A DNA stretch of 64,000 bases from Argopecten irradians. Its lineage: Eukaryota; Mollusca; Bivalvia; Pectinida; Pectinidae. Positions within the stretch are counted from its first letter, which is position 1, and each line of letters starts with the position of its first letter. The notes below the pieces were generated by a model that saw only the letters and a list, made by a program, of their open reading frames with translations, made no database searches and was not told the DNA's origin. A program made the position numbers and the translations under genes. The stretch is from positions 63,046,902 to 63,110,901 of the forward strand of contig NC_091134.1 of assembly GCF_041381155.1 (NCBI RefSeq). The letters are read 5' to 3'. Shown piece after piece: positions 23,089 through 61,800 of this stretch.

Positions 23089-24322
23089 TTTTAGGTCATC
23101 TGACCCAAAGGGTCAGGATGACCTATAGTCGTCATGTTTCGTCCGTCGTCGTCCGCCGTGCGTTAACTTTTCACATTTTGAACTTCTTCTCAGGTTCTAC
23201 CAGTGCCATTTGGCTGAAACTTGCATGAAATGATCCTGACATGGTCCAGACAAAGTGTTGTTATTAGGGCCCCGCATCGAGATGCGGGTGCCCTATAGTA
23301 ATCAGCTTGTCCGTCTGTCTGTCCGTCCGTCCGTCTGTCCGTTTTTTTTCTTTTGCACATTAATGATGGAAGGGAGTGGAGTATTTTCCCCATATTTTAC
23401 ATGATGATTCCCCATCCATCCTAGATCTGCTTGGTAATTTTTCAGGCTGAAATTAAATTAAAAAATCGGCCATCTTGGATTTTAACATTTAAAAAAATCA
23501 CAATGTTGTTGCTCTTAACTGATAAACATTTTGTTATAACATTATGATGCAAAGTTGTTCAGAATTAAACAAGGAGTTGACTGTCCAAAGGTAAGGTCAT
23601 GGGCCAAGGTTACTAAGTCAAAGGTCAAGGTCAAATTTATTTGAGTTAATTTTATGCTCTTAATGTAATGTTAGCTTGGAATCAGGATTCAAGTTAAATA
23701 CTTGGAAGACTTTTTCCAAAGAATTATAATAATGTACCATCATCGGTTTCCCAATTAATGTTGACATTAATTATTTATTAGCAACATATAGCTAACACGG
23801 AAAAATTTGTTGTCAAAATACTACTTTTCCACTTAAGCACGTCGACAGACACATAGCGGGGCCCTTTCTGACGTGTCAGTGTTCTAGTTTTTCAGGTCGA
23901 TCCAAAATTCAAGATGGCCACCACAGCTGCCATCTTGAAAACACATTTTGAACTTCTTCTCAAGTTCTAATGGTGCGATTTGGCTGAAACTTGCATGAAA
24001 TGATCCTGACATGGTCCCGACAAAGTGTTGTTATTTTTCGGGTCGATCCGAAATCCAAGATGGCCGCCACAGCCGCCATCTTGAAAACACATTTTGAACT
24101 TCTTCTCAACTTCTGCCTGTGTGATTTGGCTGAAACTTGCCTGAGATGATCCTGACATGGATCGACAAAGTATTGTTACATCTCTGGTTGATCCCAAATT
24201 GAAGAAGGCTACTATGACACTATATCTAATTAAATTCCTACATGTTAAGGCCCTTGAGCCTCTTGTTTGAAATAAAATTTGTTGAAGGAAACGGAAAATG
24301 ATCCTGACATGGTCCTGACAAA
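23089..24322 (-). mobile_element. Helitron-like element E1 (146-bp core), nested in E0
   Basis: The minus-strand 3' end is at 23089-23125: a CCTGACCCTTTGGGTCAG hairpin followed by ATGACCTAA. Next inward is an ACGGACGACGG run, then between two and three 146-bp core units, then the GTTGATCCC… module and a truncated 5' region at about 24322. It is itself interrupted by the class 3 element at 23267-23887. Confidence 0.7.
23267..23887 (-). mobile_element. Helitron-like class 3 element, nested in E1
   Basis: Inserted into the T-run of a 146-bp core unit: host sequence GTTGTTATT is to its left, and TTTTTCAGGTCGATCC to its right. On the minus strand it begins CTAGAACACTGACACG with subterminal AGGGCCCCGC. 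It ends with an ACGGACGG-rich microsatellite, a CCCGCATCTCGATGCGGG hairpin and GCCCTAA. Its interior (about 23350-23850) is a different AT-rich sequence. The exact ends are ambiguous by two bases because of the T-run. Confidence 0.75.
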
Positions 24323-28002: not shown

Positions 28003-28071
28003 GATTTTTTGGGGTTTTTTTTTCTTAATTTTTATTCAATTGGGCTTAATCAACATATACGGTACTATGAG

Positions 28072-31793: not shown

Positions 31794-33551
31794 ACAAGAG
31801 GCCCAGAGGGCCTGTATCGCTCACCTGGTTTGTAATGCCAAGTAATGTTCTGAATACAGGTTCATTGTTTCTTTTCTGAAGGAATTTTAATATTAACCTC
31901 TAAATCCCCTATTAGGCCCCACCCCTCCTGCCCCCAGGGGTTCAGAGCCAAAATTTATACAAGTTCTGTTCCCCTTCCTCCAAGGATATTTGTGGCCAAA
32001 TTTGGTCACAATCCAAGCAAAACTCTAGGACAAGTAGCAATTTATAGGATTTACTTCTATTTCCCCTATTGGGCCCCACCCGTCCTGCCCCTGGGGGGCC
32101 AGAGCCAAAACTTATACAAGTTCTGTTCCCCTTCTCCGAAGGATGTTTGTGGCCAAATTTGGTTACAATCCATACAGAACTCTATGACAAGTGGCGATTT
32201 AAAGAATTTACCTCTATTTCCCCTATTGGGCCCCGCCCCTCCTGCCCCCTGGGACCAGAGCCAAAATTTATACATACTCAATTCTTATTCTCCCAAGGAT
32301 ATCTCTGGCCAAATTTGGTTACATTCCATGCGGAACTCTGTGACTAGTAGCGATTTAAAGGATTTACCTCTATTTCCCCTATTAGGCTCCGCCGCTCCAG
32401 CCCCCGGGGGGCCAGAGCCAAAATTTATACAAGTTCTGTTCCCCTTCCCCCAAGGATGTTTGTGGCCAAATTTGGTTCCAATCCCTGCAGAACTCTATGA
32501 CTAGTAGCGATTTAAAGGATTTACCTCTATTTCCCCTATTGGGCCCCGCCCCTCCTGCCCCCGGGGGGCAGAGCCAAAATTTATACAAGTTCTGTTCCCC
32601 TTCCCCCTAGGATGTTTGTGGCCAAATTTGGTTACAATCCATGCAGGACTCTATGACTAGTAGCGATTTAAAGGATTTACCTCTATTTCCCCTATTGGGC
32701 CCCGCCCCTCCTGCCCCTGGGGGATCAGAGCCAAAATTTATACAAGTTCTGTTCCCCTTCCCCCAAGGATGTTTGTGGCCAAATTTGGTTACATTTCATT
32801 CAGAACTCTACGACAAGTAGCGATTTAAAGGATTTACCTCTATTTCCCCTATTGGGCCCCGCCCCTCCTGCCCCCGGGGGGCCAGAGCCAAAATTTATAC
32901 AAGTTCTGTTCCCCTTCCCCCAAGGATGTTTGTGGCCAAATTTGGGTACATTCCATTCACAACTCTATGACTAGTAGCGATTTAAAGGATTTACCTCTAT
33001 TTCCCCTATTGGGCCCCGCCCCTCCTGCCCCTGGGGGGTCAGAGCCAAAATTTATACAAGTACTGTTCCCCTTCCCCCAAGGATGTTTGTGGCTGATTTT
33101 GGTTACATTTCATTCAGAACTCTACGACAAGTAGCGATTTAAAGGATTTACCTCTATTTCCCCTATTGGGCCCCGCCCCTCCTGCCCCCGGGGGATCAGA
33201 GCCAAAATTTATACAAGTTCTGTTCCCCTTCCCCCAAGGATGTTTGTGGCTGATTTTGGTTACATTCCATGCCAAACTCTAGGACAAGTAGCGATTTAAA
33301 GGATTTACCTCTATTTCCCCTATTGGGCCCCGCCCCTCCTGCCCCTGGGGATCAGAGCCAAAATTTATACAAGTACTGTTCCCCTTCCCCCAAGGATGTT
33401 TGTGGCTGATTTTGGTTACAATCCATGCAGAACTCTAGGACAAGTAGCGATTTATAGGAAATGTTGACGGACGGACGGACGGACGGACGACGGACGACGG
33501 ACGCCGCGACATGACATAAGCTCACCGGCCCTTCGGGCCAGGTGAGCTAAA
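31794..33551 (+). mobile_element. Pearl/Helitron-like element, about 10 core units of 158 bp
   Basis: 5' end ACAAGAGGCCCAGAGGGCC, then subterminal CGCTCACCTGG. The core runs about 31880-33460 with units of about 158 bp, each carrying CCCCTATTGGGCCCCGCCCC and TTTATACAAGTTCTGTTCCC. Then come GACG repeats (33463-33500), the hairpin GGCCCTTCGGGCC and AGGTGAGCTAA. The 5' and 3' subterminal sequences are inverted repeats of each other. The general plan matches pearl elements of bivalves as I remember them. Long open frames here are products of the repeats. Confidence 0.87.
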
Positions 33552-34631: not shown

Positions 34632-37600
34632 TCAGCAATCCATCATGGCATCATGTAATTTCTGTGAAACACAATCCCAGTTGACAACATTCCAAATGGC
34701 ATTGACGTAGTCGGGGCGGACATTTTTATACTGTAGGTAGTAGGCATGCTCCCAAACATCAATACCAAACAGAGGAACCAGCCCTATACAAACAGAAATA
34801 ACATTTACTCCATCAACAGTAGTTGTCAAGTTATAGCTGAAGTGACCTTAGCACAGAAATGCATACATGTATCATACACATACACTAAAATCAAGTATGT
34901 GGTAGCCAAACTGTCCACCGAAATTTGATTTCTGTATCCATGAAATCCGATTTAGATACCATGAAAATGAAGATTTTCAAAACGTCAAATTCATTTTATA
35001 AAAAGAAGTTTTATTTAAACTGGATGATAAATATTTTTCATCAAATAGAATTCTTCAAACAGAATGAAAGCATTTTATAACAATTAATGAGTCTTCATAT
35101 ATTTTTCACACTGATCATGCATGCTTAAAAAGCAATACACTCATTGCTTTCAAGGGAAATATTTAAATAATAGTTAAAAAGTACATTACTCCTGAGTTTT
35201 GTAAAGGAAAATTTACAATTTGGAATAAAACTGAAATACCTTATTCTCTCAAGTGAATAGGTGAAAATTGTCATAAATAACCTGAGTGAAAGAAATCAGC
35301 AAAATTAACTACAATCATATTACCAAGAACTAGCCAGATTAGTTTTCTTTCCCTAGTTGAACCCAGAAAAAAAATGCAAGTCATTGGTTATTAGAATCAA
35401 TGTACAGGTAATTCTATCTTCATTCAGACTCATTCATATCAGTAGGCACACAGAATGATGAACTGTCATAGAAAATGACACAAAGGAAAGCACATCAGTA
35501 TAGCACTGGTAAAACATAGATTGGATGTTAACAAGACGACACACTCCTTACTCCAATATTTTCTATCGCATGGTACCTCTTTATGATAGCCTAGATAGCA
35601 GCAGTCAAAAGCCTTTATTTCATCAGGAGACATTCATAACATGATAAGGGTGTATGTAATGCTAAAGATCTTTTTGACAGTAGATTGCATGTACTGCAAA
35701 CCAGCAGATCATTTTGTGACAGGATAGAAGTGAAGAAAGTTTATGGTACATGTATTCTAAATGTATGATATTTCAGCAAACGCGCATGTGATTCTTACTA
35801 CAACATCAAATGATATTAGAGGTAAAGAAATTGTAGTAAAATATTTGAAATCATTTTGTCAGAAGATTGTACAGAAGTGAAGAGATAAATAATGAAAATC
35901 CTTGGAGTACTGAGGTCACAGAATGCTTATTTGACTTGTCATAAAAACTACATCAGATTAGGTTGGAATATTTATGTAAATACTGTACATGGGTATCTCA
36001 AAACACAAACACAAAAGATTGCAGATTCTTTCTAAATAAGCAAAAGAACACAAGACATATACATATATGGTATATTTTAGTGCTTGATCAAGGCTTAAAT
36101 GTTTAGGATGCATGCTTTAATGAAATACACATGTACCCATCTAAATTTCTCATAATGTTGATGTTTTGTTATAAATGGATGCTAAAGGTGGAGCTAATAA
36201 CAAGAGATCCCAGATCGCCGTCCACCAAAGAATGATCTATGACTGAACTTTTCAAACTTCATTTGTAACAAGCGATCCTAGAGGGATATTGCCATCCACC
36301 AAAGAATGATCCATGTCTGACAATGGAAAGAGGTATCTTTTCTCTGCACAAATAGACCCCTAGGGGAACCTACATGTGAAATTTGAGACAGATCTCTTCA
36401 GTAATTTCTGAGAAATAGTGGTAACAAACTTCTACTATTAAAATCAAAGATGGCGGCCGGCCACCTATCTTATTGATCAATCGGTCACAAAATGAAATAT
36501 GCACAACTTAAGCCCTAGGGGAACCTATATATAAAATCCCTTCAGTAGTTTCTGAGAAATAGCGATAACAAACTTTATATCAAAATTGAAGATGGCTGCC
36601 TGGCAGCCATCTTGTAGACCGATCGGTCTAAAATCGCAACATGCACAACTAAGGCCCTAGGGGAACCTACATGTGAAATATGAGAATGATTCCTTTGCTA
36701 CTTTCTGAGAAATAGCAATAACAAACTTTAACTATCAAATTCAAAGATGGCTGCCTTGCATGCTTCTTGTTGATCAATCTGTCCCAAAACACAATATACA
36801 CAACTAAGGTTCTAGGGGAACCTACATATAAAATTTGAGACTGATCTCTTCAGTACTTTCTGACAAATAGCAATAGCAAACTTTAACTATCAAGTTCAAG
36901 ATGGCTGTCTGGTGGCCATCTTGTTTATCGATCAGTCCCAAAACGAAATAGGCACAACTTAGTCCCTAAGGTAACCTACATATGAAATTTAACAACGATC
37001 CCTTCCGTACTTTCTGAGAAATAGCGATAACAAACTTTAACTATCAAAATCCAAGAGGGCTGCCAAACACCCATTTTGTTGATCGATTGGTCCCAAAAGT
37101 CAATATGTACAACTAGGGCCCTAGTGGAATCTACACATAAAATTTGAGAATGATCCCTTAAAGATGCTCCACCGCCGACAGAGCATTAATGATATTCATC
37201 ATTTGAACAATAATTTGTGTTGAATCGTGTATATATATGCCTAATTAACACAAAAAAATAACATAGAATAATCTATTTCGCCTTTGGTGCATGCGCAATC
37301 ATTACTTCATTCTATATAAGATATAGTGCCACGGAATTTTTTCGGGATGCAATTAATTGTTTTTCATATTTTTAACTTGAAGTAAAATTAGAAGCTCAAA
37401 CTTTTCAATGGTGGTAATGGTGTAAAATAAGTAACTTTTGTAACTGAAGAAAAATACAAAATTGTCTGCTCCTGTTTTTGAAAGTGAAAAAATACCATTT
37501 GTCAGCGGTGGAGCATCTTTAAATACTTTCTGAGAAATAGCGATAACAAGAATTGATGGACGGACGAAAGTATGGACCACGGTCGAAAAACAATTTGAAT

Positions 37601-40600
37601 AGCCCATCAACTGATAATGGTTGGCTAAAAACAACCAAGACATGGCTGCCTGCCATCTTGTCAAATCTATTGGTCCCAAAATGCATTATGCACAACTTAC
37701 ATGAACACCAATTTTCATTCAAGTGTACCCAAAACTTCAAAAAAGATTCCTAGAAGAAAAGACTGTTGATTGAATGCTGAACATGGATGTTATTAGTCAT
37801 TTGACAACCTTGCAACAAAATGTCATTTATATGAAGCTTACTGGCTATTGATATTGATTTTATGAAAGACTTTTGGGAAATTATGAAGATCGATATGTCT
37901 GAATCAGATCACTCAAAGCTGAACTGAATCTCTACAGAGTTATGATAAAACTGAAAGACATTCAAAATGGTTTTGAAAATGGCAGCCATTTTGGAGACCA
38001 GCCAGAAAAAATTGAGAAGTTTGAAATAGAAATGTATTCTCATAGTGGAAATTTGAAAACTGAATTCAAAATCATGTTACAAAATGGCTATCATAACTGC
38101 CATGGCAACATTTTTCGAGGCCGAAAAATAACAACACTTCAATGCTTGCCATTCTGTTATGTCCATACCAGGGTCAAATATATAATATGTGTATTTCAAG
38201 TAACAAAATTGTTTTTAAAAAAAAGTTGTTGGTAAATCTCACTGTTGGAACTGTGGAAACGTGCCACAACTAGCTGGAACCAACTAACTACGGTGTAAAC
38301 GTGCCACAACTAGCTGGAACCAACTAACTACGGGGTAAAGTGCCACAACTAGCTGGAACCAACTAACTACGGTGTAAACGTGCCACAACTAGCTGGAACA
38401 ACTAACTACCGTGTAAAGTGCCACAACTTGCTGGAACAACTAACTACCGTGTAAACGTGCCACAACTAGCTGGAACCAACTAACTACGGTGTAAAGTGCC
38501 ACAACTAGCTGGAACCAACTAACTACGGTGTAAACGTGCCACAACTAGCTGGAACCAACCAACTACGGTGTAAACGTGCAACAACTAGCTGGAACCAACT
38601 AACTACTGTGTAAATGTGCCACAACTAGCTGGAACAACTAACTACGGTGTAAACGTGCCACAACTAGCTGGAACAAACTAACTACGGTGTAAACGTGCCA
38701 CAACTAGCTGGAACAAACTAACTACGGTGTCTACGAAGAGGTAACAGGTAACTAGTGGAACTCAAGTGGAGAAGAAATTTAAAATGAGTTTTCTCAAGAT
38801 GGCAGCTGTAGCAATCATACCAAAACTCAATACCCAAATATTGATGGCAATATTTACGTATGTTAAAAACAAGGAATTTAAGTAAATGTAAAGAAAATTA
38901 CCAGATAATTCACTTATAATTCCAATACCCAAGAATTTATAATTCCCTTCAACTCTTCTATTTCAGATATCAAAATTTCAAAAACCTATCCAGTTGTTTC
39001 AAGTATCATAATCAGACATATAAGTATATATAATATCAAGTATGATATAACTTATACTACCAAAGTAATACACTTTCAATACAGTACCTCTTTCGGTTCA
39101 TAATATTTTTCAATGTTAAAATGTGTTTTACTAGTGAATACTTCACACTATTTAAGTTCAAACCAATGGATGATGCAGCAAGTCTTCCATAAATCCATGC
39201 AAAGGTGTTTGCGGTCTTACATGACCAACCAAAGATAATTTCTATATTTGATCACAGATGTCCTTGTGTGCTCCCTCGATCCCCCTTTCAATATTTCCAA
39301 GTTTCAAAAATGGCAATCCAATAGTCTGTTATGATAATTTTTTCCCTGCTAGTCATTTGGACTAGAAAACCCCATAATTTTACTAGCCCAACTATTTACT
39401 CACTAGTCCAAATTAAATATATAGCTTTTGCTTCAGCACTCAGTCATCATCAGTTTATGATTTGTTTACCCAAATTGTAGTCTAGATATGTTTGTGAATG
39501 CAAATTCTCACAAAATGATGCATCCGGACTGAAATAATCGCATACAGAATGCACTCAAAATGTGTTGAAAAATGCAATTAACCACCGCTCTAGTAAATAT
39601 AGTATTTTATATTGATTTTAATTGGGTGGGAGCTCGAGTCCAATCATACTAATTCATTACAATTGGCACTAGTCCGGCCGTAGTCGCGTGCATTGGACTA
39701 GTACTTAAAGTAGCAGACTGATCCAATGAATGAATACTGACATGTAGCACATTTACCTGGTAATATTTACATGTAGCAGTATTTACTCATTAGTCAGGTT
39801 AGTTTATACTCCAGCAGGAGAGCAGTATTATATTTCTATATTCAATACCCCTAAGGTATTTTCATTTCATTTCAACAAATTCCACTGCATTTGCATCAGG
39901 ATTTGGCATCAGACAAAGCCTATATCAGCCACCTCCATTGCCATTCACTTATATGTGGAATATGGAAAGCTTCTGATTTTTACTAGCACTTACAGAGCTA
40001 GTAGTCTTCCATGTTAAGTGATAATTCCATATTTAGGATATAATCTAAGAATCTAAGAGAGTGTTATGGTGTTAGTGTATGGCACACCCACATCCCAACT
40101 TCTTCAACATCGAAACAGGTTCACAAACTAAATGTAATGAAACTGATTACTTGGTGGCTTATTATATTTTCAGGTGAAATCAGGAGTTGGGTGTTCCATA
40201 CATATTGAAATTAATAATTTTGTTTTCAGGGTCATCCCACATCACATGACATTGGCAATTCAAATTCCAAGGTCATAGTTACCTGTGGCTGTGGTAAGTT
40301 CAGTCTGAAGGAAGCCCAGGCCGTCAGAAGCTGGTATTCGCACTAGCTTATCAACTGAATTAAACCAGGTTAATTTTGGCAAAGTTATTTTAACCTATTC
40401 AGCTAACACAAGATCCATTGAGGGATTTCTGGCATACAATGATGACACATCTCTAATATCAATATGATACAGCCTATCAATAACCCATGATTTTTCTAGA
40501 AAATCTTGTAGATGAAGAAGAACATATGTTTAAGCCTACCAGTATATAATTATATATACATTAAAATCTATGAAACAACCCATATCCAGACCTACACAAA

Positions 40601-43600
40601 ACAATCCTATTATGCTATAAGTACTAATAGACTATAACTGTTATGATCTAAGGAAGATGATAATACTACCTGTGGTTGGTTGAAGTGGGTCCTGGTTAGC
40701 ACAAGCTGCTATTCTAAGTCTTTTACTGACAGGATTGAATCCTAGCCATCCCCATCCAGATCCCTGGACAGCAGTAGAGGCACTGCTCAGCTCTGTCTTC
40801 ATGGCTTCAAACGAGCCAAAATCCCTATTGATAACTTCGAGGAGATCCCCTGACGGTTCCCCTCCTCCGTTGGGGCTAAGAACCTCCCAGAAAATGGAGT
40901 GGTTGATGTGACCACCACCGTTAAACTTGAGGGCTGGCTGTAACTGGATCACTTGATTAATGTTTTCTGCATTAGAAGAAATAACATAAATATCAAAGCT
41001 CTTTTTGTCCACAGCATGGATCAGTGATAAATCGTGTACATACAGTAGAACTTCCCCAAACCGAACATGGTTGGGGCATGGAATTTTGTCCGGTTTAGAT
41101 CTAGGGTTCGGTTTAGAGAAGTGAACCAAATATTGATCATTATGATCTGGATTTAATTGATCGGAGGTTGTTTTCTATACTATACCGTAATGCCTGTATG
41201 CCTTGTGTTCGTTATGCCAACCAATATTACTGTTATTGTGAATATTATCACAAAAGAGAGAAAAAAGGAAAGGATTAACATAATCTTGACTTTGTTACCG
41301 CAAATAAAGGTAGTTATATATACTTGCGTGAATGTTGCCGTCTGCACTAACCTACATACGGGTGATCGCTTACCGTTACATCAAGAATCACATTTAATAT
41401 GGTCTAATTACACAATGATCAGTCAATGCTGGTCATAATATGACATGGTTATTTTCGAAAACAATACATGGCTTCGGCTTCTTTGCTCTCAAAATTGAAT
41501 ACAAAACTTTCTCTTTACTAGCTCTGCTTGTTTTCCTACAGTAAACAAACCGCCAGTGCATGTGGTAGACCTTCGTTAAATATCTATACAATGGACATTC
41601 AATAATTGCATCACCATCTCTGGTATAATCACCGTCTACATATACCTCTCACACCTGTATACATGCCCCAGGAGATGGCATGCGACAACTATGGACATTA
41701 TATAGGAACGTGTGTATTTCAAGGTCGGTTGATCACACATCAATGCAAGCTATCAGTGTCGATCAGGTAAAGCAAGTTTTCAAAAGTGAATTTTAGTTAC
41801 ATTTGACTATTCCGATCTCAAAATCGGTCCGGTATTCAGAATTGGGAGGGATCAGTTTTGGGAAGTTTTATTTACTATTAATAAAGAGGAATTCATGCCG
41901 TACATGACATCCGTATTCGGTTTCTAGAGGTGATCGGTTTTGAGAAGGTTCAGTTTCGGGAAGTTACACTGTATATGCAATTGGGGTTTTCACAATAAAA
42001 TAAAGTGTAGCCAGTCTTTTTAATAGTATGATAGTATTGCATCAAAGTGCACAAGTCTCAAAGGAATTCACAAATTGTCATTAATGTATGTCCACATCAT
42101 TTTCTTCGGGCCGAATAAAAATAAATATGCTTGTTTCTGGTAACACCCTTTAAAAATGAAAGGTTGGTAGGTAGGGATTTGTTTTCTTCTTTTTTATATA
42201 TATATATATATATTTTTTCTTTTCATCCCAGTTTCTTGCTGTAAAATACTGAAAAGGACATTATTCAACATTATATTAGCCATAGATTTGATTCCCATGG
42301 TATTACTGGTGTCTTAAATTTACAGAATTTGTACCCAAATTCCTCATTTAATTGCAAAAAAAAAGTTAAGGTTGTTATTTGTTTGCTTTAAGCCAAAACT
42401 GATTTAAAGTTTTGGAGCAGACACTGATTTTATAGAGTCGGTATGGTTACTGGAAACATTACTTTTTTTAATGTCCTTTTCTTTTTGTGTCCATCTAAAT
42501 TATTCAAACAATGTTAGAGATAGCAATAAAATGAGAATAAAATATTTTGTTGTTTATTAACATACTTAGTAGTTGCTTATTATAATATAATTGGGTTTTG
42601 AATAAGGCATACATATATATGTGTCTCAAAACATACTTGTCTCTGTTGCTTCAGCTAGTTTCTCCTCAGCAATGTTTAGATTGTTAACATATGCAGCATG
42701 ATGCTTTGAGTGGTGGAGTTGCATGATGTCTGCAGAAATATAAGGTTCCAATGCATTGTAGTCATAGGGAAGGTCTGGTAAAGTATGTTTCAGACGACTT
42801 GCCAAAGCCCCAAAAGCTCCAACACTTTTAGGAATACTGAAAAAAAATGAATTGAATGGTTTGAATTGAAACCATGGCTAGGAGATTTATTGTAATCAGG
42901 AATTGGTGTATTGTTACTTCACAAAATTAAGTTTCTCATTCTTTGTAGGAATCTGGAAATCCGTATTTCAAATATTCATTTTTTTAAGATATTTTTTCAC
43001 CACTGTTTTCCAATATCTTTTACGGAATATCTGCATCATCTGAGATTAGCCCGAGATACTCTGGCCCTGACACCAGACTTAGACATAATGATCGATGGAT
43101 AGATGTCAGGTGTAGGGCTATATCAAAAGGTGGAACTCGTGGACACGATTTGGTATCGGGTCAGGTCATCTCCAATTCAGACTGACCTTCGAGAAGCCCC
43201 ACTTACCTTGGCCTTTTCAACAAATGAATTATTTATCTATCCAAAAAAACAATCCGTCGAGATTAGGGGCGAATTGCATACTATGAGAAAATGGCAACGA
43301 TGAGGAGGAAGATTTAAAGTTCAATGTTGCGTAAAGGAAACTACTGTATTGACATAATGTAACGTGCATGCATGATAAAATGAATTGCTTTGGGTAGATA
43401 AATTATTCATTTGTTGAAAAGACCAAGTTAAGTGACACTTCTCGGTGGTAATGTTTTGTAAGCAGTCTAAAACGGAGATGACCTGGCCCGATAACAAACA
43501 GTGTCGGCAAGTTCCACCTTTTGATAAAGCACTGCGCTCTGACCCTACACCAGACATCTAGCTGTCATAATGTCTAAGTCTGGTGTCAGTGCCAGAATAT

Positions 43601-44991
43601 CTCCGGCTACATCTGACACAACTTCGCAAGCCAAGGGTATGAAGTCCAATTTTCTTCCTACTACCCTTGGCATATCTCACTTCAGAACAGGTGTTTTTGC
43701 TTTCAAATTGATTGGATGCAGCTAGGTTCAGACGACCAATGAAAACGCAGCTTTGATATGTCAACAAAACTGAACTGAAGCGATAGTATAGTGACCTACA
43801 TTTGTATAATGAGGCATCAGGCATGTCATGCCTGTCAACATCAACTCCTAGCGAAGTTATATTACTATCTATTTAATCAATTACATGTTTTATACCTGCT
43901 AAATGAACATCGTGGAGACGTTGCTCTCAAAACAGATAGTGCATGGTTTATGTTTCACAAATTAAACAATTAAAATATATACTGTGATCTTGTTACAAAA
44001 TTGGACATTGCAAAACTTCTGCATGAAATACAAAAACTGGTGTCTGAACTAACTAATAAGCAAATGACTCACACACTTGTTAATCTTTGATATTTTGAAT
44101 CTGTCGCAAACAACACACGTTTCATAGGGCGCTGCCATTTTTTCAACCATACAACAATGATACAAGCTTTTTAATTGGTTGCTTATTACATAAATGGAAG
44201 TGGCGCAACTGCGGTGATCCAGCAGGTGGTGCAGTGCAGTAACAGCCGTTCTGAACCAAGATATGCCAAGAGTAATAGAAAGAGAATCGGCTAATACCCA
44301 TGGCTAGCGAAGTTGCATCTGAGATTACTCCAACAATGTTAGAGGTATAGCACGACGAGACACTTTTGGAACATTGACAGTCAGCAAAATAATGTCCGAT
44401 AAAAAAAACGGCTGACTAGTCAACTCTCATGTTATGGGAGTACATCAGAGATATGATAACTTGTTTTAAGAGAAAGAAAATAATCGCACAGAAATATATC
44501 AGATATTCTGCCGAGGGTTAAGGTAGGCAAAGTTATATTAAATATGAGCTTTAAACCATAGGAGTCTGCTTCTGGTTTTGGAAAAAAAATTCATATAGAG
44601 TCTAGATCTAGTAGGGGTAGGTTATTGTATTTTTCAAAAACTTGATGATGAATTATGCTGTGGATGATTGATGGCAATCACCTTCAAATGATCTAGCCAG
44701 TCTAGACATCTTGGTAAGGAATAAATAAATTTTCGATAACGTACATTGTATGCAAAACACTTCGTATTATGACTAATTAACAACTTTTTTTATAATGCAA
44801 CATGCAAGTCATTCAAGTGTCCTTCACATAAGACTTTTGTTTTAAGCGGTTTGTCAGAAATGGAGCCTTCCAATTAGACGAGAAACGTATAACCTGACAA
44901 CACATCAACAATAAGCATTGCTTTGATTTACATGACAAGAAAACGTTTGGAAATAACACCTTTTCAAAACAGTTGTAGTAGCAGACAGCAT
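34632..44991 (-). CDS. SOD2: Superoxide dismutase [Mn], mitochondrial; four coding exons, 226 aa
   Basis: Converts superoxide to oxygen and hydrogen peroxide in the mitochondrial matrix. Coding exons on the minus strand: 44960-44991, 42637-42836, 40670-40966 and 34632-34783. They sum to 681 nt including the stop, with GT-AG introns and matching phases (2, 1, 1). Start [10 protein letters not shown] leads a basic, hydroxylated presequence of about 26 residues; the mature chain begins [11 protein letters not shown]. Manganese ligands are His52, His100, Asp185 and His189 (human mature 26, 74, 159, 163). Tyr60, His56 and Gln169 of the proton relay are present. There is no gap against the human enzyme from the mature start through these residues, as I recall its sequence. 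The last exon has [17 protein letters not shown]. Introns carry MITEs, satellites and a pogo-like element. The gene is divergent from WTAP. Coding sequence looks intact. Confidence 0.97.
36196..37577 (+). mobile_element. Satellite-cored dispersed element, about 6 units of 153 bp
   Basis: Starts TAACAAGAGATCCCAGATCG, with a second, similar ACAAGCGATCCTAG start at 36267. The core units (about 36320-37150) carry CCCTAGGGGAACCTACAT and CTTTCTGAGAAATAGCGATA. A short GACGGACG run ends it near 37566. Each unit also has AAGATGGCTGCC-type palindromic segments. It looks like a decayed relative of the pearl-like elements upstream. It sits in SOD2 intron 3 and is split by the MITE at 37162. Confidence 0.65.
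37162..37518. mobile_element. TTAA-flanked MITE, copy 2
   Basis: A 357-bp element with ends AGATGCTCCACCGCCGAC and GTCAGCGGTGGAGCATCT, flanked by TTAA (37158-37161 and 37519-37522). It interrupts a core unit of the surrounding satellite element: GATCCC precedes and ATACTTTCTGAGAAATAGCG follows, and one TTAA joins them into a normal unit. This confirms TTAA as the target. Confidence 0.9.
38240..38735. repeat. 40-bp minisatellite in SOD2 intron 3 (about 12 units)
   Basis: Tandem units built from GTGCCACAACTAGCTGGAAC followed by CAACTAACTACGGTGTAAAC. A few units lack one or two bases (GTGTAAAGTG, GGAACAACTA). It is non-coding. Confidence 0.95.
38736..40282. other. SOD2 intron 3, no further feature
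   Basis: AT-rich intronic DNA. I see no exon, RNA gene or clear repeat before the candidate cassette exon. Confidence 0.5.
40283..40354 (-). other. Candidate 72-bp cassette exon of SOD2
   Basis: On the minus strand, acceptor TTTAATTCAG is followed by 72 nt and donor GTAACT. Entry and exit are both phase 1, matching the intron between SOD2 coding exons 3 and 4, so inclusion would add 24 residues ([20 protein letters not shown] then TTAT) between Gly177-flanking Thr176 and the next exon without a frame shift. The stretch is GC-richer than the intron. The insertion would fall between the Gln169 loop and the Asp185/His189 ligands, so such an isoform might not be active. The opposite strand is also open and spliceable here, so the strand and reality are uncertain. 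Confidence 0.25.
41043..41971. mobile_element. TA-flanked TIR element (pogo/Tigger-like ends)
   Basis: Ends CAGTAGAACTTCCCCAAACC and (reverse complement) CAGTGTAACTTCCCGAAACT are flanked by TA on both sides. The length is about 929 bp. CAGT…AAC…TCCC ends and TA targets recall pogo/Tigger non-autonomous elements; the superfamily is inferred. There is no transposase frame. It lies in SOD2 intron 2, 76 bp from coding exon 3. Confidence 0.7.
41972..42636. other. SOD2 intron 2 remainder
   Basis: AT-rich intron with a short TA microsatellite at about 42197-42213. No gene seen. Confidence 0.6.
43035..43617. repeat. Large inverted repeat in SOD2 intron 1
   Basis: Arms of about 215-240 bp (43035-43250 and 43379-43617) are imperfect inverted copies separated by about 130 bp. 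Shared blocks include TCAAAAGGTGGAACT, TCAGGTCATCTCC and TTTTCAACAAATGAAT. Both arms encode a frame starting MSGVG on opposite strands, a reflection of the duplication. It is probably a foldback element. Confidence 0.7.
43619..44315. repeat. Second, outer inverted repeat in SOD2 intron 1
   Basis: CAACTTCGCAAGCC…CTTGGCATATCTCACTTCAG at 43619-43688 matches in reverse the segment 44248-44315. The arms are about 70 bp and the spacer about 560 bp. It is adjacent to the inverted repeat at 43035 and may be part of one composite element. Confidence 0.6.
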
Positions 44992-45518
44992 GGTTCCGTA
45001 GGCCCCGTTATGAAAATATGACCTTGACATTGACTTTGATTATAGAAAAGAAACGAACAGAACAAAAATAAAAATATAGATTTATCTATTCCATATATCT
45101 TATAAGAGAAATTATGTAGACGTTTGATTTTAATAATTATACTTACCTGTATAGAATGCAGCTTATTTACATGCTTTTAACAGAAGAAGAATTTTCTTCC
45201 GTATTATTTACAAAAGATGGTTATAAATTTGTATTAACCTTATAAAAATAATTATTTAATTTTTTTCTAAATTTATGCGAAATATTTGATTATCAACTTA
45301 GTTTTCGATTATTTCTTGATAATAAACTTGGTCAAAATCAAATAATTTGCATTTAAAAGCAAAAGTTATTTTTACATATGAATGTATCGCAGCCGTCCCA
45401 TAATTCCTATGTTAATTACATATGGCGGCCCCCTTGTGTCGATGTACAGACTTTAACATCGTTTAAATTTGTCTCCGATTGTAAAATTTCGAAATCAACA
45501 AGAATCAGTATAGTCAAG
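44992..45518. promoter_or_regulatory. Divergent SOD2/WTAP promoter region and likely WTAP exon 1
   Basis: Lies between the SOD2 start codon (minus strand, 44991) and a consensus splice donor AGTCAAG|GTGAGC at 45518/45519 on plus, the best candidate for the end of a non-coding WTAP exon 1. The WTAP coding start follows in the next exon, whose acceptor is TTTTTTGCAG at 46836. An ATGGCGGCC string at 45422-45430 resembles the YY1 motif often found just downstream of TATA-less start sites. No TATA box is evident on either side. Transcription starts are not placed. Confidence 0.45.
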
Positions 45519-46836
45519 GTGAGCAAAAGAAGAAAATATTTTAAACATTGAATATATATTGATCTTGAAAAACATTTTGTTAAGAAGTGTTTCAAGGAAG
45601 TAATAAGGCGTGGCGGGTCCAAATCGACGCCATGTCGACGAAGGTTTTTGAACTTTCCTGATTGTTTCGTGTTAAAGGGTAATCTTGAAGATGCCAGCCG
45701 TATTTTTAGTAATTGTCGATCTAAGATATTTCAATTATTGTCAGAATTCATTTACTTTCATCCTTCATCTTTAAAAATGCAACGTGCTTTCGTTCTCGTT
45801 TAAACGGAACCATTTTTAAGCAAAACGTGATGCCGACCCATGCCATGGGAATATGATTTTAACAGATTATCAACTAAAATTGACAGGTGGAAATAGCAAG
45901 ATTTGCGTACTTCATAAGCTCCTATATATCAATTGTTACTTGTATAACAGCTGCGTTCCGTAAATATTACGATAATCAATTTATTATAGAAATATTGAGG
46001 CATTGATATAAGATTTAGTATATTCCCAGAAATTACCCATAGATAAGGCCCGTTAACAGATAGGTCCAAATAGAAAGTGAAACTAAAATTATGTTACTAT
46101 TTCACTGACTGGCGATTAGCTCTCATCACCAAGTACAAATTCTCACAAATGCATATTTCAAACTTTTATTTATAATTTTCAGTCACTATGGGAATGGGGC
46201 CTGAGGCTTTGAAATTTGGATAATGTGTGAGAAAACCAAAATTGGAGGGTGGGGGAATAAAATGTGAAAAAAACATAATGAATAGGATTGTTTGTTTCCA
46301 GTGTAATTTATGTACTTTTCTGAAGAATTATATATAATTAAATCCTAAAGATTCTCCAAGATTAAACTTCAGTTATTGTTCAAATTATGGGTATCATTTA
46401 CATGTAAGCTCTAGATCTGTTGGAAATTTAAGGCTTAACTTTTGAAAAAAAAATTAAGAGGCTTTAACTTTGTTTTTGGAAATGTGGCTGAATTATGGCC
46501 CCCAAATCATTCTGGAAAAAAGCCTGGCTGTCTACTCAGTAGCATCTTCAAATTTTATTACACATGTAAAGACATATAAACGTATGCGATAAAACATACA
46601 TGCAGTAGTCTGATAGTAGCATCAGAGTTCAAACTGCAGTTTGAGCATTTTATTTATGATGAATTTATAATAATAATGTTGATAAAAATAAATACACACA
46701 CACTTTTAAAAATCTTGTATGGATGTTCATTTCCTTTACCTTAACTCCTTCCATGAGGTTTATCACATACTTTATCATTTAAGTATGATACAGTAAGATA
46801 AGAGGATAAGCATAACCCTTCTTTCATTTTTTGCAG
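45519..46836 (+). other. WTAP intron 1 (inferred)
   Basis: AT-rich sequence between the putative non-coding first exon and the first coding exon. No repeat or other gene was seen. Confidence 0.4.
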
Positions 46837-46850
46837 GTCAAATATTTACC

Positions 46851-49800
46851 ATGACAGACAGTCCGCCTTCACCAAAGAGGGTAAGTTCAAATTAACTACA
46901 TCGGGTAACATGTATGTATATATTAGCTAGACTTTGAATTATGCTTTCATATAACATTAGACAATGTTATGCAGTTTGTTTGTTTGATTTATTAACGTCC
47001 TATTAACAGCTATGGTCATGTGAGGACGGCCTCCCATGTATGCGTAGTGTTGCGTGTATGTTGTGCGAGGTGCGTGTTTTGGGAGATTGCGGTATATTTG
47101 TGTTGTGTCTTCTTGTATAGTGGAACTATTGCCCTTTTTATAGTGCTATATCACTAAAGCATGCTGCCGAAGACACCAAGCAACACACCCCACCCGGTCA
47201 CATTATACTGACAACGGGCGAACCAGTCGTCCCACTCCCTGTATGCTGAGCGCTAAGCAGGAGCAGAAACTACCACTTTTATAGACTTTGGTGTGTCTCG
47301 GCCAGGGGACAGAACCCAGGGCCTTCCTCACAGGGGCGAACGCTCAACTCAAGGCCAAAAGTGAGGCGGTGCCAAGGGAGGCATTAGGAAAGATAAAGTC
47401 AGTTAGGAAGAAGAGAAAAGATAAGATCCTAAATTTAGTCGCCTTTTACGATCAGCAATTGGGGCAGCAGGTACAATTCTTACGCCCTACCTGCAGGGTC
47501 AACAATGTTATGCAGATTTAACCAACAATCAATTACTGCTACTTCATGAAGAAAACCAGTGGAATTTGAAGTGATCATTGTTTTTGATTGTTTTTAGGTG
47601 AAAATGGAAACAGTGGATCTAAATGAACTCACTCGTGATGAATTGATTAACAAGTAAGAATGGTTACAATGAAATAACAACAGGCCCCACCCCCATCTTC
47701 ACTCGCCCCCCAACCCAAATATTAAAGAGCAGATATCTTAAAAATGTGTTATTTGTAAGCAATATATATACTTGATTGATTACCATAAATGGTTAGTGTT
47801 ATGTTAATGCTCATGATCATCTGTACAAATTGTTTTATCTAATTTAAAAGATAATTTCTTTCCCTTGCATGCTTAAGATTATGCTTTTCTATTAAATAAA
47901 TTATAAGTAATGGGACATGGCAGTACCTTGATTTGAGAGGTTGAAATAAGTGTTTATTTGAACTGCTTGTTAATATTTGTTATTTGGTTATGATATACAA
48001 GGAAAAGGACATGTGTTCTTATTTATGTGAAATTTCGTATATTTTGTGTTAATTGCCAGGGTGAAAGAGCAAGAAAAGTATGTGCGGTATCTTGAAGAAA
48101 GACAGTCAAGAGGTCGAAAAGGAGGTAATTAATAAAAGAAAATAGTCATTCTATTATTGATTGATTTTTGATGTTTTTTATCAATTCATAGTATATATAC
48201 TACAATCAGAAAAATAAATGATGTGATAGTGAATCCTCAAAGGAGTATTAATGCCAGCAGTAATTGTAGTAAAAATACATACATATCCGTGAATATACAT
48301 GTATATATATAATTTAAGACAAACTTCAATTACCCTATTGCAAACAAGAATACACAAGGGACCATTTTTTTCTCAGATGAGGATTCAGATGTGAAAGAAT
48401 TGGAGGAGAAAATGAAACAGCAGATCCGTGATAACATGAGGCGAGAAAGTACCCTGGTTCATCGCCTTGCCACAAAAGAGCAGGAACTGCAGGACTACAT
48501 TGTAGGATATAGTAGTACTTCATTCAGTTTTAAGTTTCATAGCAAGATTTAACTTGGAATTTGTGTCTACTTTTTTAGGCCAATTCTATTAGATATGATG
48601 CAAGCATTTCTTCAAAATAAAGAACTACAGATTATTTCGTTCTTTATATTATTGATGCTTTACTAGAGTCACATAAGCTGAAAGACAATATGAAGGATTT
48701 TTTATTGTATATGATTCGCAATGTAGTACTTTTGATATCGCTATAATTAAGGGTAGAAAAGTATTGGGTCAAGTATTTTAAGATAGAAAAGTATTCTAAT
48801 ACAAATATTAATGAATTTGTTTCCTAGCAACTAAGATTTTTTTTATCTAGTTCAAAGTTTTTAGAAGAAGAAAAAAGAACTAAAGGCAGAAACTGCAGTT
48901 TGAAGTTGCATTGATATGTCATTGTGTGATTATTTTCATTTTCAGAACCAAATTGCAGAAATGAAACAAGCACAGACTCAAAACTCTGCTCAGCTCAGAT
49001 CTATGCTGTTGGACCCTGCCGTCAATCTAGTGTTCCAGAGAATCACCAAGGAAATGGACGAATCACAGGAGAAACTCAAACAAACCCAAAATGAACTAAG
49101 TGCTTGGAAGTTCACGCCAGACAGGTGCCTATCACCCCTTTTGATAACTCTTATAATACTGACCAATTCATTACCAACATGACATGTAAGGCTACTCAAG
49201 CTTTGTTTCCATTTTAGTTTGTTATGCCCGTATCAGGTTCGTATTGTACCACAGCAGCCCAAGATGTCTGATGCGCTCGCTCAGGAAAGTGTCCGAAACA
49301 GACTGTCGGCCAGTTCCCGAGATCTTAGCCAAATGTCAAACTCGCTGTGGCGGTTTCTGAATTTGACTCAAGTTTAATTAATTGACACACACACAAGGTA
49401 TACTGACCATAAGCTATGCGTATGATGCTGAAAGGCCAAATACCCAGACTGTGTTGTATACAGGGCTGGTGCCCAGCAGTGCATCCTAACTTTAGGTTTA
49501 TATTGAGGTATCGCCCATGGATAAAGTCCTGATCATTGCCGTTACTACTCTTACTGCAGAGTGACACTTTGTCGCAAAGCTTGGGACAGAACTGTTGCTA
49601 CCACTACAAAACTTTTTTATTTTACTCATTTGATCATCTTTCTATCAGTCAAATGAAATAAACACTAAAAAGCTTAGAATTTCACATCATTTTCTATTCC
49701 TCATCCTTATTGATAAACTGAACTTCCCCTTGGGTATGGAAAGAAGTAATGACATACACCTTGGCTTTAACACTCCATGAGACAAACACATAATGCAGAA

Positions 49801-52800: not shown

Positions 52801-55800
52801 GATATCCCCAAATATAAAAGACGTGAGGTCGATCAAATCCTCATTTAGTGCCAATTTGACTAAACTCCTCTAATTGGCTAAGTCCTGAAGTTGAAATGTC
52901 AAAAATGTGAATATCTATTTTGTGACTAATCAGATTGCAAAATCCTTTGGCAGATATTACCACCATAATGGAGCGCTTTTTATAAAGTGAGATTGAAGTT
53001 TCTTTTTGATCAAATATTTGCATAGGTCAGTTTTTCATTTTTTCCATAATGGAACTGGATGGGGGTTATATAATGCTCAATGAGATAAAGGAATAAAATA
53101 AAAGTTCAAGTTCAATTTTATAGCTGAAAATCATCACAGTTCTGATTTATTTACTGGCAAAATTTATGACAAATGAATAAAGCATATTCGAAAAATTAAG
53201 ATTTTTGTATTGCAGATTTATGGACTTCGACATATTTTGGTATTCAGCCAAATTAACGTTATAGGAAGTTTTTACTACTAAATAAGATGAGCATATTTAT
53301 ACCGTTTTTTACAACAAATGATAAAAATAACAAGTACAAAATATACAAAAAAGGATGTAACATATTTTGAAGCATTTGCTTTTTTATTTTCCGAAATATT
53401 AACTACCAAAATGGGTGTTTTGCCAAAAATCTAAGTATAAAAACACTTCAAATTGGCACGATCAGTCAACTTGACATGTTAATATTTAGGTTTTTTCTAG
53501 ATAATGTATTATCGATCATGCATTAATATCAAAGAAAATGTAATTCTTTAAGGCATTAAACATAAACTGATATAGTTCAGGGTAAGATTTTATAAATGTT
53601 TGCATCTAAAAAGAACAAAAACGGTAATGCTAGCTAAATTCAAAAGGTTTTGAGCCATTTTCATCCTTCTTTATTGACTGAAATTATTGTTTCATTTAAA
53701 CTTATTTGTACTAACATAAAGTTTGTCTTACTATATACCCGATTCCATATTTCAAGTATTGCAAAAATAGCAGATATTGTACTTTAAAAGTGTCAAAAGT
53801 GTAATTTCTATATATTTTCTTATTTTTTGGGTGTTGAAAAAATGATTTTCCGAACATAATTTTTAGCGAATTTTTTCATGGTAAAATACTAAGATCCTCC
53901 AACCCAAAAAGCAGAAAACAAATTCTGTTGCAATTATTTGGAGGTTAGGCCTCTATTTTTCATATTTTTACTGGACTACTTATATTAATGGGAACTAAAC
54001 GACCTAAGTGAGAAAAGTAAATTGTTTCATCAAAACAGTGAATTCAACCACCAAGGATACATTTGGGTACAAAAGATCATAATTCAAAGGAAATGTCAGG
54101 GAAAACTACTACTCAAAAAAAGTCCAATATCATTCAGTGGGAAGACAATCAAAGGTCAAATCAACAAGGGAGTGTCACCAAGGTCAAATCAACAAGGAAA
54201 TGTCACCAAGGTCAAATCTACAAGGAAATGTCACCAAGGTCAAATCAACAAAAAAATGTCACCAAGGTCAAATCAACAAGAAGATGTCACCAAGGTCAAA
54301 TCAACAAGGAAATGTCACCAAGGTCAAATCAACAAGGAATTGTCACCAAGGTCAAAACAACAAGGAAATATCACCGAGGTCAAATCAATTAGGAAATGTC
54401 ATTTAGGTCAAATCAACAAGGAAATGCCATTAAGTTCAAATAAACAAGGAAATGTCATCAAGGTAAATACAACAAGGAAATGTCACCAAGGTCATATCAA
54501 CGAGGAAATGCCATTAAGGTCAAATCAACAAGAAAATGCCATTAAGGTCAAATCAACAAGAAAATATCATTAAGTTCAAATCAACAAGGAAATGTCACCA
54601 AGGTTGATAAAACAAGGAAATGCCACCAAGGTCAAATCAACAAAGGAATGTCACCCAGGTCAAAACAACGAGGAAATGTCATCAAGGTCAAATCAACGCA
54701 GAAATGTCACCAAGGTCAAAATTTTGAGGAAATATCACCAAAGTCAAAAGAATGAATAATATCACTACACATCACTTCAGAATTTTAGAGATAAGGATAT
54801 ACAAGCTCTGTGAAGTAATGCATTCCTGACTGCTTTGGTTTTAAAAACTAAGTAAAGTTACATCTACAACTAAAACAAATATTAAAAAGCCTAGTTCAAA
54901 ATGAAAGGACATGCAAACATCGGTGACTGTCCTCACTATTACTGGTTACGTAATATTGGGACTGCTTCAATTTGTCAATACAATGTTTGCTTAGAACTTT
55001 TCTCTGCAGCTGAAAATAGAATTTTTCATCGGAGATGAATGGAACATTCAAAAGGGGGAAAAAGGGGGGAAAAACAGTGATTATAACCCTGACTTACCAT
55101 TAGGCTAAGCACTACGAGAAGGTATACAGACACTGTGTTCTTCTGAGAAATTCAGTGATATGTGCATGAAGCTGTGAACAGCCAGTGTAGTAGGTGACGA
55201 GACAAGCTTCAAGATTCAATCTTCACACAACTGTTTAACTGTTCTATCTGTATTGTAAACTGATTTTGCTGGAAACTTTGCTGTTAATATGTCAATACCA
55301 TCATAGATAATATTATCAGTTTCAATCTGTACTCCAGGATTCTGAAAGAAGATTTATGATCATCCAGATGTTTCAACACAACAAATAGGAGAGTTATACA
55401 TAGGAAGAATGAGAATCATCACAACAGCTATCATCATAACGGCTAGAAAAAGGACATGGGAATACAGAGTAGTAGGGTATAGAAATATAGCTAGAGAAAG
55501 AGAATTCATCTCGTCGGGTATAGAAATACAGAGAAAAAGTGGCATGCAGAATTAATGTGTTTTCAGCGGCATATTTCAGAAGAGCAGTAATTCCAGTTTT
55601 CCATATGATGCAGTCCAAAGAAATAGAGAAAGTTAAAAAGTTCAGTGGCAAATTCCATAAACAGAAATTTAGAATTTCTGTATGAAGTGATCCAAAGTTG
55701 ATGTGTATGGTGGAAGATGACAGTGTTTTATTTATAAAGCAGTAGTTGCATCAGTGTGATGTTACAAATCGTATGTAGCAGTGTGTGTTTCTACATTACC

Positions 55801-58800: not shown

Positions 58801-61800
58801 TTGAATTGTTCAATTTAGAACTAAGAATATGTGTATGTTGCTAAGATTATATTAACTTTGGGCTAACTGATCATGATGAAAGAAATTTTGGTCCAGATGA
58901 TGGTTAACAAATATTTAATCGATCTAAGTTCATATCTGCAAAAATTTTCAAGGTTAAACATTATTAGAAGTGATAAGCATTATTGTTTTGACAACCATTG
59001 TACAAAGGTGTATGTCACACAGTGGTTTGCTATAGTATTGATTACATGAGACATAATCAGAATCCATCATATGCATAATTCGGTACTGTAAACACACTTT
59101 CTTTCGCAGCTATTAGATTTCGTGGTTTTCCATTTCAAAAGAAGTGAGCGAAGATTAATATTCATGGATTTAACAATTGAATAATTCCTATCAATACGAT
59201 GATGAAGTTTTAATTGGCCGTGATAAACTTTCACAAATTTACTTGGATCGTGAAATTTGCGACGAAAGTAAATCACAAGCGAATGAAAGTTATTGGATTT
59301 ACAGTATTTGAATTAAAAGCCATGCTATTTAGGAAGTGTGTCAATATTTCAATAGAAATTTAAGTTAAATATTGATATTCACTTATCATTATGGCTTTTT
59401 TTGATGCGTCAATGATGTTATATTTACATTTTCACTGCAGTCCCACTATGTAACCTTACCAACCGCAGTTTGCAGTCATATAGACAATGAACTTCAAGCG
59501 CTTATTATGACGTTATTATCATTTGTCGTGCCAGTGATCGCGGAAGACAGCTGTTCAAATGGCTATTCCATCCATGAAGATAACGAATGATTATTTCATC
59601 ATAGATGCAAAATTCCTTGGGATTTCGTCTTTCAGTTGGCATTCATAGCCATTATGAATGCCAACTGAATAGAGGCAAATTTAACATGAAGCGCTAGCGC
59701 TCCATAGAATTTGCCTCTGTACAGTTTGCATTCATATTGGCTATGAATGCCAACTGAAAGACGTTTAATGCTTAAGTGTAGTATAGTTACAAATTTACAA
59801 ACAGTGTGTGGAGAGATGTTCTCCAGGATATTGTGATTGACTTCCACTGGCTGGCTTGATTTCATAGCTAAAAGGTAGTGGTTTGAAAATGATCCAATAT
59901 AATGTAATTCAATCACTAGGATAGGAGTTTGGATAAATTTTTAATGCAATGTCATATTTAGGCAAAAGTCAATTATGGTATTTGTAATTTCAGAACAAGC
60001 TCATGTACCAGTACACTAATATGTTGTATAATTATGTATAATTACTTTTAAGTATTTGCCTCAGTGGTACATGTTTTAAACAAACTAATTAAAAATGGAT
60101 CATCTTGGATGAATATTTTTGCCATGTGAAGGCTGATCAAAAGAGGTCACATTCATTTCTATGGAGGTACAATGTTGTAGTCTCCTCTAAGATGGTTATT
60201 TAGAAATGACATATATGTAGACATCATTATACTAAGATTGTCCTGTAAGTAATTAGCTAATAAAAAAATACTGCAGTACTTGGTCAGGTATCTGATATGT
60301 AGGCACATGTAAGTTTATGAAAACAATAAGTAGATTATCTCCCTTGTAATGTTTTGAGATGGTTTTGCAACACGTGCTCATACAATTAATTATTATGATA
60401 CTTTTCTAAATGCTTTAACTGCATAATTTATCAGATTACTAGTAAACATTTTATTTTTCAAAAAAGATTTCCACTACCTAGGTAGTGAATTTTCTTTGCT
60501 GATATAGTCATTATACATGATAGTATGTAGAGGAGAAATTTGTAGTGGCATACATAATAATTGCTTCAGTTTGATTTCTACATTGCTTTTAAATTTCATT
60601 GCCTCAGTAGTTCAGAAATTATAGAATCTGAAACCAGTATGATGATTTCAATAATGTAAGTCACAGCTATCTAACTCGTTAAGTCTGTAGTTATGGTTAT
60701 CAATGATGATACCTACGCTCAAGGCTGATTTATCATTTATGTAGACATTGACTATTGAAGCTGAGAAGATATGTTAACACTTTATAAAGACCAGGTGTTG
60801 ATTGTAATAGTTGCTTATCTATTGGTACATTTCAAATAAAAGTGTTTCAATATCACAAACTCTAAAACGAAATTTGCTATCACTGTAATGTTATCATAAG
60901 TCTGCTGGTTCAGTTTCTTTTACTTCATAGGATGCAGATACTTATTTGTTGTTTTTTCATGTTATATGTGGAAACATTCAAAATTAGCTGTAATGAATAG
61001 AATTCTGGTTGTGGGGCTAGTCGGAAAGGTTCTGTATATCTGACCCATTCCAACACAATGTTAAGTGGAATGGGTCAGATAGAAAGACTAGCCCCATAAT
61101 CAGAATTGTATTCTTTACAGTAAAAGTGTGTGATAAAGAATATACTTATTGTATAGTGAAAGAAAAATAATGGAAATGCTCTAGAATGTCTGATAATAAT
61201 ATTACATATATTATGCATATGAATACAGTATATTCTGCTAATGACCATTATCTGCTGTTGTGTCATTTGTAGAAGTGTTTTATAGTTGAATACATCTGTA
61301 AGATGAACTACAAAATACTTGACCAGTACTAAAATGAACTGTTTCAGCGTCTCCCTTCCTTCACATGGCGAAGAAGATGGGATTTTTAACTCCTGGTAAG
61401 GTGTTTCTGAGCCCTTTATTGTTCTGACAGCCCCTTTTTGTGACCCATTTGTTTTGCTATTTTCAGCCAAACTGGTAAGAGGTTGATGGCCAAGTGTCGG
61501 ATGCTTCTTCAGGAAAACGAGGAGCTAGGAAAAGTAATCAACTCTGGGAAAACAGCTCAGTTAGAAGGAGAGATCGCTCTACAGAAGTCCCTTGTACAGG
61601 AAATGACCACCAATCAGTCGGGTAATGAGTCTATATCCTTACTCATATCGAATATTGTGTTGCTAGAGTTAGCTGCTCTTGATCAGCATGTTAATATAGT
61701 GACACTTTTCTCACAAATAAAATTTATCATATTATGTTCATGACCTGCTTACAGGTAAACCTACTTGTAAAGAGAAAATTCCCCTCATCAGGGAATGATA

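Follow-up and report, generated by a model that had tools for sequence, protein, structure and literature searches.

The window analysed here, a 64,000 bp stretch of the Argopecten irradians genome (NC_091134.1, positions 63,046,902 to 63,110,901), holds two divergently oriented genes, SOD2 and WTAP, which lie head to head across a short AT-rich gap (Table 1). Gene models for both were obtained by joining exons at AG/GT sites into one long reading each. The splice matrices, as well as the background frequencies and the 22 motif strings applied to the gap, hold human-type or general values rather than values fitted to the species, and the scores are to be read as ranks within the window. The original prediction had SOD2 reading leftward from 44991 and WTAP rightward with a probable first exon ending at 45518. 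The former is borne out by a complete four-exon model with Pfam SOD domains and a manganese superoxide dismutase (MnSOD) match in the PDB, the latter by a donor at 45518 (AAG/GTGAGC, in the top 0.07% of the GTs in the window), an acceptor at 46837 and a Pfam Wtap match. The interval assigned to the pair, 44960..46880, proved too narrow, as the genes span 34632-63017.

The SOD2 and WTAP gene models

SOD2 is encoded on the minus strand in four coding exons (226 aa, ATG at 44991 in the spliced model), while an alternative exon 3 donor at 40667, three bases further, gives an equally open 227 aa variant. The translated product contains both SOD domains (PF00081 and PF02777, above the cut-off) and its best PDB match is 'Superoxide dismutase [Mn], mitochondrial' (8sks, presumably the human protein; E-value: 1.3e-101; 144/201 aligned residues identical, 72%). 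It also carries motifs, DVWEHAYY among them, which we take to be metal ligands. The N-terminus starts with MLS and extends 26 residues ahead of KHTLPDLPY, and this extension preceding the mature protein is presumed to be a mitochondrial transit peptide.

The donor of SOD2 exon 1 (AAG/GTGTTA) is weak, with a score of -0.7 that 13.8% of the GTs in the window equal or exceed, and the exon therefore rests on its reading phase, its position and the MLS start. By eye, an A occupies position -3 of the ATG at 44991, and a further in-frame ATG is found at 45030. Were exon 1 misassigned and the true 5′ end located elsewhere, for instance in an alternative first exon, the start-to-start distance would differ. 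The weak donor is consistent with this, as is the strongest donor of the window, which is found 156 bp further upstream, also on the minus strand (45147), albeit without a good acceptor. Ten ATG-to-donor candidates of the right phase occur in 42840-46000, however, and only two of these (45030 and 44991) are situated at the gap, the other eight falling inside inverted-repeat elements (43047-44322). Human SOD2 likewise has a short transit-peptide first exon followed by a phase-2 intron, and misassignment appears highly improbable.

Two adjoining inverted-repeat elements (43047-43609 and 43612-44322), with arms of up to 71 nt that are mostly 78-85% complementary, occupy part of SOD2 intron 1, and a tandem array of twelve 40-bp units (38253-38730) is also located within a SOD2 intron. 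Elsewhere in the assembly, a second, divergent MnSOD is encoded at C16:4674500-4684499, with a different N-terminus and a hydrophobic stretch ahead of the domain. Its first exon shifts frame at an A run, which reflects a slip in the assembly or else a defect.

WTAP is encoded on the plus strand and consists of an untranslated exon ending at 45518 and seven coding exons (446 aa, ATG at 46851). The protein contains the Pfam Wtap domain (PF17098; E-value: 3.5e-59, above the cut-off) and finds its best PDB match over residues 1-284 in 'Pre-mRNA-splicing regulator WTAP' (7vf2, which we take to be the human chain; E-value: 6.6e-73), with 125 identities within the first 237 alignment columns. A search with the first 252 residues gave 20 pattern matches in viral contigs and 33 in prokaryote contigs, none of which was a relative. 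Among 17 candidates scored against the Wtap profile, two reached E <= 0.001 in the assembly, and both are exons of the WTAP gene described here. The SOD N-terminal and C-terminal profiles match three and four places in the assembly, respectively, those on the contig of the pair (C1) belonging to SOD2 and those on C16 to the second MnSOD. With a single Wtap locus and the second MnSOD on C16, WTAP is thus linked only to the mitochondrial-type SOD2.

A tandem array of 21 units of 28 bp (54152-54748) is located inside the 12.3-kb WTAP intron. Another WTAP intron contains a 33-base stretch beginning GTTTGTTTGATTTATTAACG (46978-47010, plus strand), which recurs at 8229-8261 on the minus strand (0 and 2 mismatches, respectively) and is probably a dispersed element.

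The gap between the two genes

SOD2 and WTAP are adjacent, on opposite strands and divergent, which is the gene order of a bidirectional pair. Such pairs are defined by start sites within 1 kb of each other (PMC7817982, PMC6585903), and the 527 bp from the SOD2 ATG to the WTAP exon 1 donor would fit this definition provided that no distant first exon of SOD2 exists. The pair resembles head-to-head pairs with start sites less than 1 kb apart in consisting of divergent protein-coding genes with a short gap and a CpG-preserved region, but differs from them in that the gap is AT-rich (GC 0.27) instead of a GC-rich CpG island. The start sites had been predicted to lie only a few hundred bases apart, and the short gap agrees with this, while their actual positions cannot be read from the sequence.

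A 600-bp query across the gap matched only itself in the assembly. The original prediction had named an unrelated gene between the two as something to check for, and none was recognised: the gap gave no Rfam match at the gathering score, no tRNA (ARAGORN, bacterial setting) and no Pfam family at E <= 1 in three of the five gap-overlapping open reading frames (ORFs) of at least 45 aa, nor in one ORF of SOD2 intron 1.

CpG observed/expected (o/e) ratios were scanned in 1-kb segments with 100-bp steps over the 64 kb. The maximum, 1.43, falls on the kilobase containing the gap, as compared to 0.50 and 0.40 in the SOD2 and WTAP gene bodies, while TpG/CpA o/e is 0.99 at 45001-46000 versus 1.28 and 1.29 in the two bodies. 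Thirty-two CpGs are present at the maximum where the window rate predicts 13.8 (Poisson probability 2e-5, uncorrected for the 64-kb scan), and the ratio drops steeply into WTAP intron 1 (0.20 over 46001-46836). DNA methylation in oyster is mainly intragenic (PMC3840415, PMC3985014) and, taken together with the CpG-poor gene bodies, this suggests that the gap is unmethylated DNA between two germline-methylated genes. The pattern is as expected if one unmethylated promoter gap separates two methylated genes. The concentration of CpG depletion in the gene bodies, like the 72% identity of SOD2 to the human chain, is also suggestive of an invertebrate genome.

Among the 7322 GTs of the window, five donors score at least 7.5 bits: minus 45147, minus 31825, plus 33541, minus 43207 and plus 45518. 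Those at 31825 and 33541 sit just outside both ends of a satellite array, and that at 43207 lies in an inverted-repeat arm. The remaining two, 45147 and 45518, face outward, 371 bp apart, in the gap and at its right edge. As minus-strand GTs of the gap make up 21/7322 of the total, the chance of the best donor falling there is 0.003. It may belong to an alternative SOD2 first exon or to an upstream transcript; should it be part of SOD2, transcription of that gene would begin above 45150, leaving less than about 350 bp between the two start sites. Two ways of attaching this donor to SOD2 were discarded. An untranslated exon ending at 45147 lacks a good acceptor before the ATG, the five AG sites in between ranking from the 33rd to the 78th percentile from the top, and a direct splice from 45147 to exon 2 would, as judged by eye, give a reading that lacks an in-frame ATG ahead of the mature protein.

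The hits of the 22 motif strings include TCAAGGTCA, which matches the consensus of the estrogen-related receptor (ERR), just upstream of the SOD2 ATG, and ATGGCGG, a YY1-like core, at 45422. A longer YY1 string (AWNATGGCG) has no match in the gap region. Single hits among 22 strings are weak evidence, and chance is possible for both. Further features played no part in the argument, namely an ETS core (CGGAAG) at 45201 on the minus strand, TATAAA at 45222 and 45241, GAANNTTC palindromes at 45189 and 45650 (four strand hits versus 0.79 expected) and a weak and uneven strand skew across the pair.

Table 1. Positions of the SOD2 and WTAP exons, the gap between them and other features of the window.
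Feature	Position	Strand	Remarks
SOD2 coding exon 1	44960..44991	-	10 residues + 2 bases; joins exon 2 in frame; presumed transit-peptide start
SOD2 coding exon 2	42637..42836	-	SOD profile match; spliced model
SOD2 coding exon 3	40670..40966	-	SOD profile matches; spliced model
SOD2 coding exon 4, to stop codon	34632..34783	-	Pfam Sod_Fe_C match; spliced model
Gap, SOD2 ATG to WTAP exon 1 donor	44992..45518		527 bp, GC 0.27
CpG-preserved kilobase, interpreted as unmethylated promoter DNA for both genes	45001..46000		CpG o/e 1.43, window maximum
TCAAGGTCA, ERR-consensus match upstream of SOD2 ATG	45019..45027	-	1 in 1.1 kb, 0.10 expected; 1 of 22 strings tried
CAG/GTAAGT donor	45141..45149	-	Top score of the window on either strand; gap, SOD2 strand
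ATGGCGG, YY1-like core	45422..45428	+	1 found, 0.22 expected; may be chance
WTAP untranslated exon 1	45400..45518	+	Right end fixed by donor; left end arbitrary
WTAP exon 2, ATG 46851	46837..46880	+	Acceptor in top 0.06% of AGs; donor in top 0.23% of GTs
WTAP exon 3	47598..47653	+	Spliced model
WTAP exon 4	48060..48124	+	Spliced model
WTAP exon 5	48377..48501	+	Spliced model; weak donor ATT/GTAGGA
WTAP exon 6	48946..49124	+	Wtap profile; spliced model
WTAP exon 7	61467..61621	+	Wtap profile; spliced model; preceded by 12.3-kb intron
WTAP exon 8, to stop codon	62287..63017	+	Spliced model
Tandem arrays	1-2827; 3625-4415; 26242-29173; 31892-33459; 38253-38730; 54152-54748		47-bp x 60; 18-bp x 44; 146-bp x 20; 157-bp x 10; 40-bp x 12; 28-bp x 21

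Inheritance and regulation of the pair

The original prediction placed SOD2 and WTAP as divergent neighbours on human 6q25.3. We likewise take the human orientation to be divergent, the human start sites to be tens of kb apart and TCP1 and ACAT2 to be neighbours of human WTAP. The adjacency itself agrees with published accounts, in which SOD2 and WTAP are the two immediate flanking genes of a human enhancer (PMC6472090) and a single nucleotide polymorphism maps between SOD2 and WTAP at 6q25.3 (PMC5457668). Furthermore, the two genes are found close together in human as well as in two bats (PMC11594476), and SOD2, WTAP and ACAT2 are named together for 6q25.3 (PMC4451983). The scallop and human loci thus share the same immediate neighbours, but the human pair has an enhancer between its genes and is characterised by enhancer looping over the presumed tens of kb, as opposed to the 527-bp gap observed here.

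A given gene would come to lie by chance in divergent orientation and at most 527 bp from another with a probability of approximately 3e-7 in the 846 Mb assembly and 3.5e-6 on the 75.5 Mb contig of the pair. If human neighbour pairs are assumed to number 20,000, chance would account for 0.006 to 0.07 cases of this kind. These odds, together with the adjacency in human, make common descent by far the simplest reading, and the adjacency very likely goes back to the ancestor shared with vertebrates. The pairing is probably very old. The other two presumed human neighbours are not found beside the pair. TCP1 is represented by a multi-exon CCT-alpha match on C15, with none of the 41 CCT-alpha-profile matches lying within 25 Mb on C1, while ACAT2 is located on the same contig 21.7 Mb away (C1:41.4 Mb) and encodes a cytosolic thiolase (best PDB match: 1wl4, acetyl-CoA acetyltransferase 2; E-value: 4e-135). 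A mitochondrial ACAT1-like gene is also present at C1:61.9 Mb. TCP1 and ACAT2 either left the pair in this lineage or joined it in the vertebrate lineage. Pfam L18p, used to search the assembly for MRPL18, gave no hit at E <= 0.001, although exon-split genes can escape such a search and absence is therefore unsupported. By eye, no conserved gene was recognised in the 40-kb flanks on each side among ORFs of at least 55 aa with GC >0.385, for which no family search was made. C4 and the short contig C451 carry CCT-like exons of identical score, which suggests that one is an uncollapsed haplotype or a recent duplicate of the other.

Neighbours with no obvious functional relation that persist across distant animal groups are candidates for shared regulation, and ancient microsynteny was reportedly described by Irimia et al. 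in 2012. The present pair resembles the ancient bilaterian microsynteny of PMC8851819 in that unrelated neighbours are common to this genome and human, but differs in that the comparison involves two species only. Among the matches listed in a search to which most subscription papers are not open, no paper dealt with the SOD2/WTAP pair in invertebrates. As a head-to-head pair it is ordinary in kind, and its interest lies in its depth. With two human neighbours almost start to start here, and two other presumed neighbours elsewhere, the cause becomes testable.

We suggest, with a probability of about 0.6, that SOD2 and WTAP represent an inherited divergent pair with a shared promoter region. 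Both genes would be transcribed outward from one short AT-rich, CpG-preserved region (approximately 45.0-46.0 kb), from start sites that are probably less than about 450 bp apart. Open chromatin and any factors bound in the gap would serve both genes, with promoter elements shared and expression coordinated. A shared promoter is likely on these grounds and, if the genes are co-regulated, a stress-response enzyme would be tied to RNA methylation.

Several observations weigh against this interpretation. The fall in CpG on the SOD2 side is uneven (o/e 0.80, 0.45, 0.82 and 0.62 per 250-bp bin leftward from 44999), and a comparable peak, possibly another promoter or a transposon, occurs at 12101-13600 (up to 1.37 per kb). 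The control gene TCP1 (first exon match at C15:11290748) fits the promoter reading, with CpG o/e of 1.13, 1.57, 0.92, 0.40 and 0.51 per 500-bp bin from 11289000, but bins upstream are mostly near or above 1 over 7.5 kb, with a dip to 0.49 and 0.61. The control ACAT2 fits only loosely, a single 500-bp bin of 1.13 lying more than 2 kb ahead of the earliest exon recognised. Since the DNA upstream of TCP1 is also CpG-high, the footprint marks unmethylated DNA and not bidirectionality; it limits the separation of the two methylated bodies and is no proof of a single promoter driving both. NRF1, full GABPA, SP1 and CCAAT strings are absent from 44900-46000. Furthermore, the strongest enhancer within the SOD2 super-enhancer in human MCF10A cells contacts the start sites of both SOD2 and WTAP by chromosome conformation capture (3C), in what are termed long-distance interactions (PMC6472090), indicating that joint regulation of the two genes exists in human, at long range. 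This link through enhancer looping argues against the view that a compact shared promoter is what has been conserved. Many human bidirectional promoters also arose only after the divergence of chicken and fish (PMC2423431), and a very deep one would therefore be unusual.

The main rival to the shared promoter is that two independent core promoters abut in the gap, the old adjacency having persisted through inertia because the genome rearranges slowly, with no constraint from regulation. The functions of SOD2 and WTAP are unrelated on present knowledge, no common motif has been demonstrated in the gap, and lophotrochozoans keep 93% of the blocks that were new in the bilaterian ancestor (PMC8851819), all of which is consistent with inertia. 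A gap of 527 bp, however, leaves little room for two promoters, and inertia sits poorly with the absence of TCP1 and ACAT2 from beside the pair, even though these two genes may have joined it only in the vertebrate lineage. On balance, we hold this explanation to be somewhat doubtful.

Alternatively, an enhancer of SOD2 within or close to WTAP, or conversely one of WTAP within or close to SOD2, might hold the pair together across lineages. The 12.3-kb WTAP intron has room for such elements, the human 3C contacts of the super-enhancer element with both start sites would agree with it (PMC6472090), and a WTAP variant accompanied higher SOD2 expression in a study cited in PMC11594476. We nevertheless consider such a constraint quite unlikely as the explanation here. 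The original prediction offered a shared promoter or an ancient regulatory block, of which the promoter fits this genome and the block fits human, while a common cause of the two is not established. They could be reconciled if a half-kb shared promoter were the ancestral bilaterian state and vertebrates had separated the promoters but kept the genes coupled by way of an enhancer in between, in contact with both. This scenario, which would couple mitochondrial superoxide defence to the N6-methyladenosine (m6A) writer complex, is an unlikely one, and a comparison of two species does not tell a compact ancestral arrangement, as here, from a spread-out one, as in human.

Satellite units and a further open reading frame

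Satellites with 146- and 155-bp units (23888-24199, 26242-29173 and 36358-37159) contain AAGATGGC words facing GCCATCTT, an arrangement that resembles paired YY1 sites. On the SOD2 side, the nearest recognised gene is a 344-aa open frame on the plus strand (21626-22657), which encodes a MYND zinc finger (Pfam E-value: 1.1e-6).

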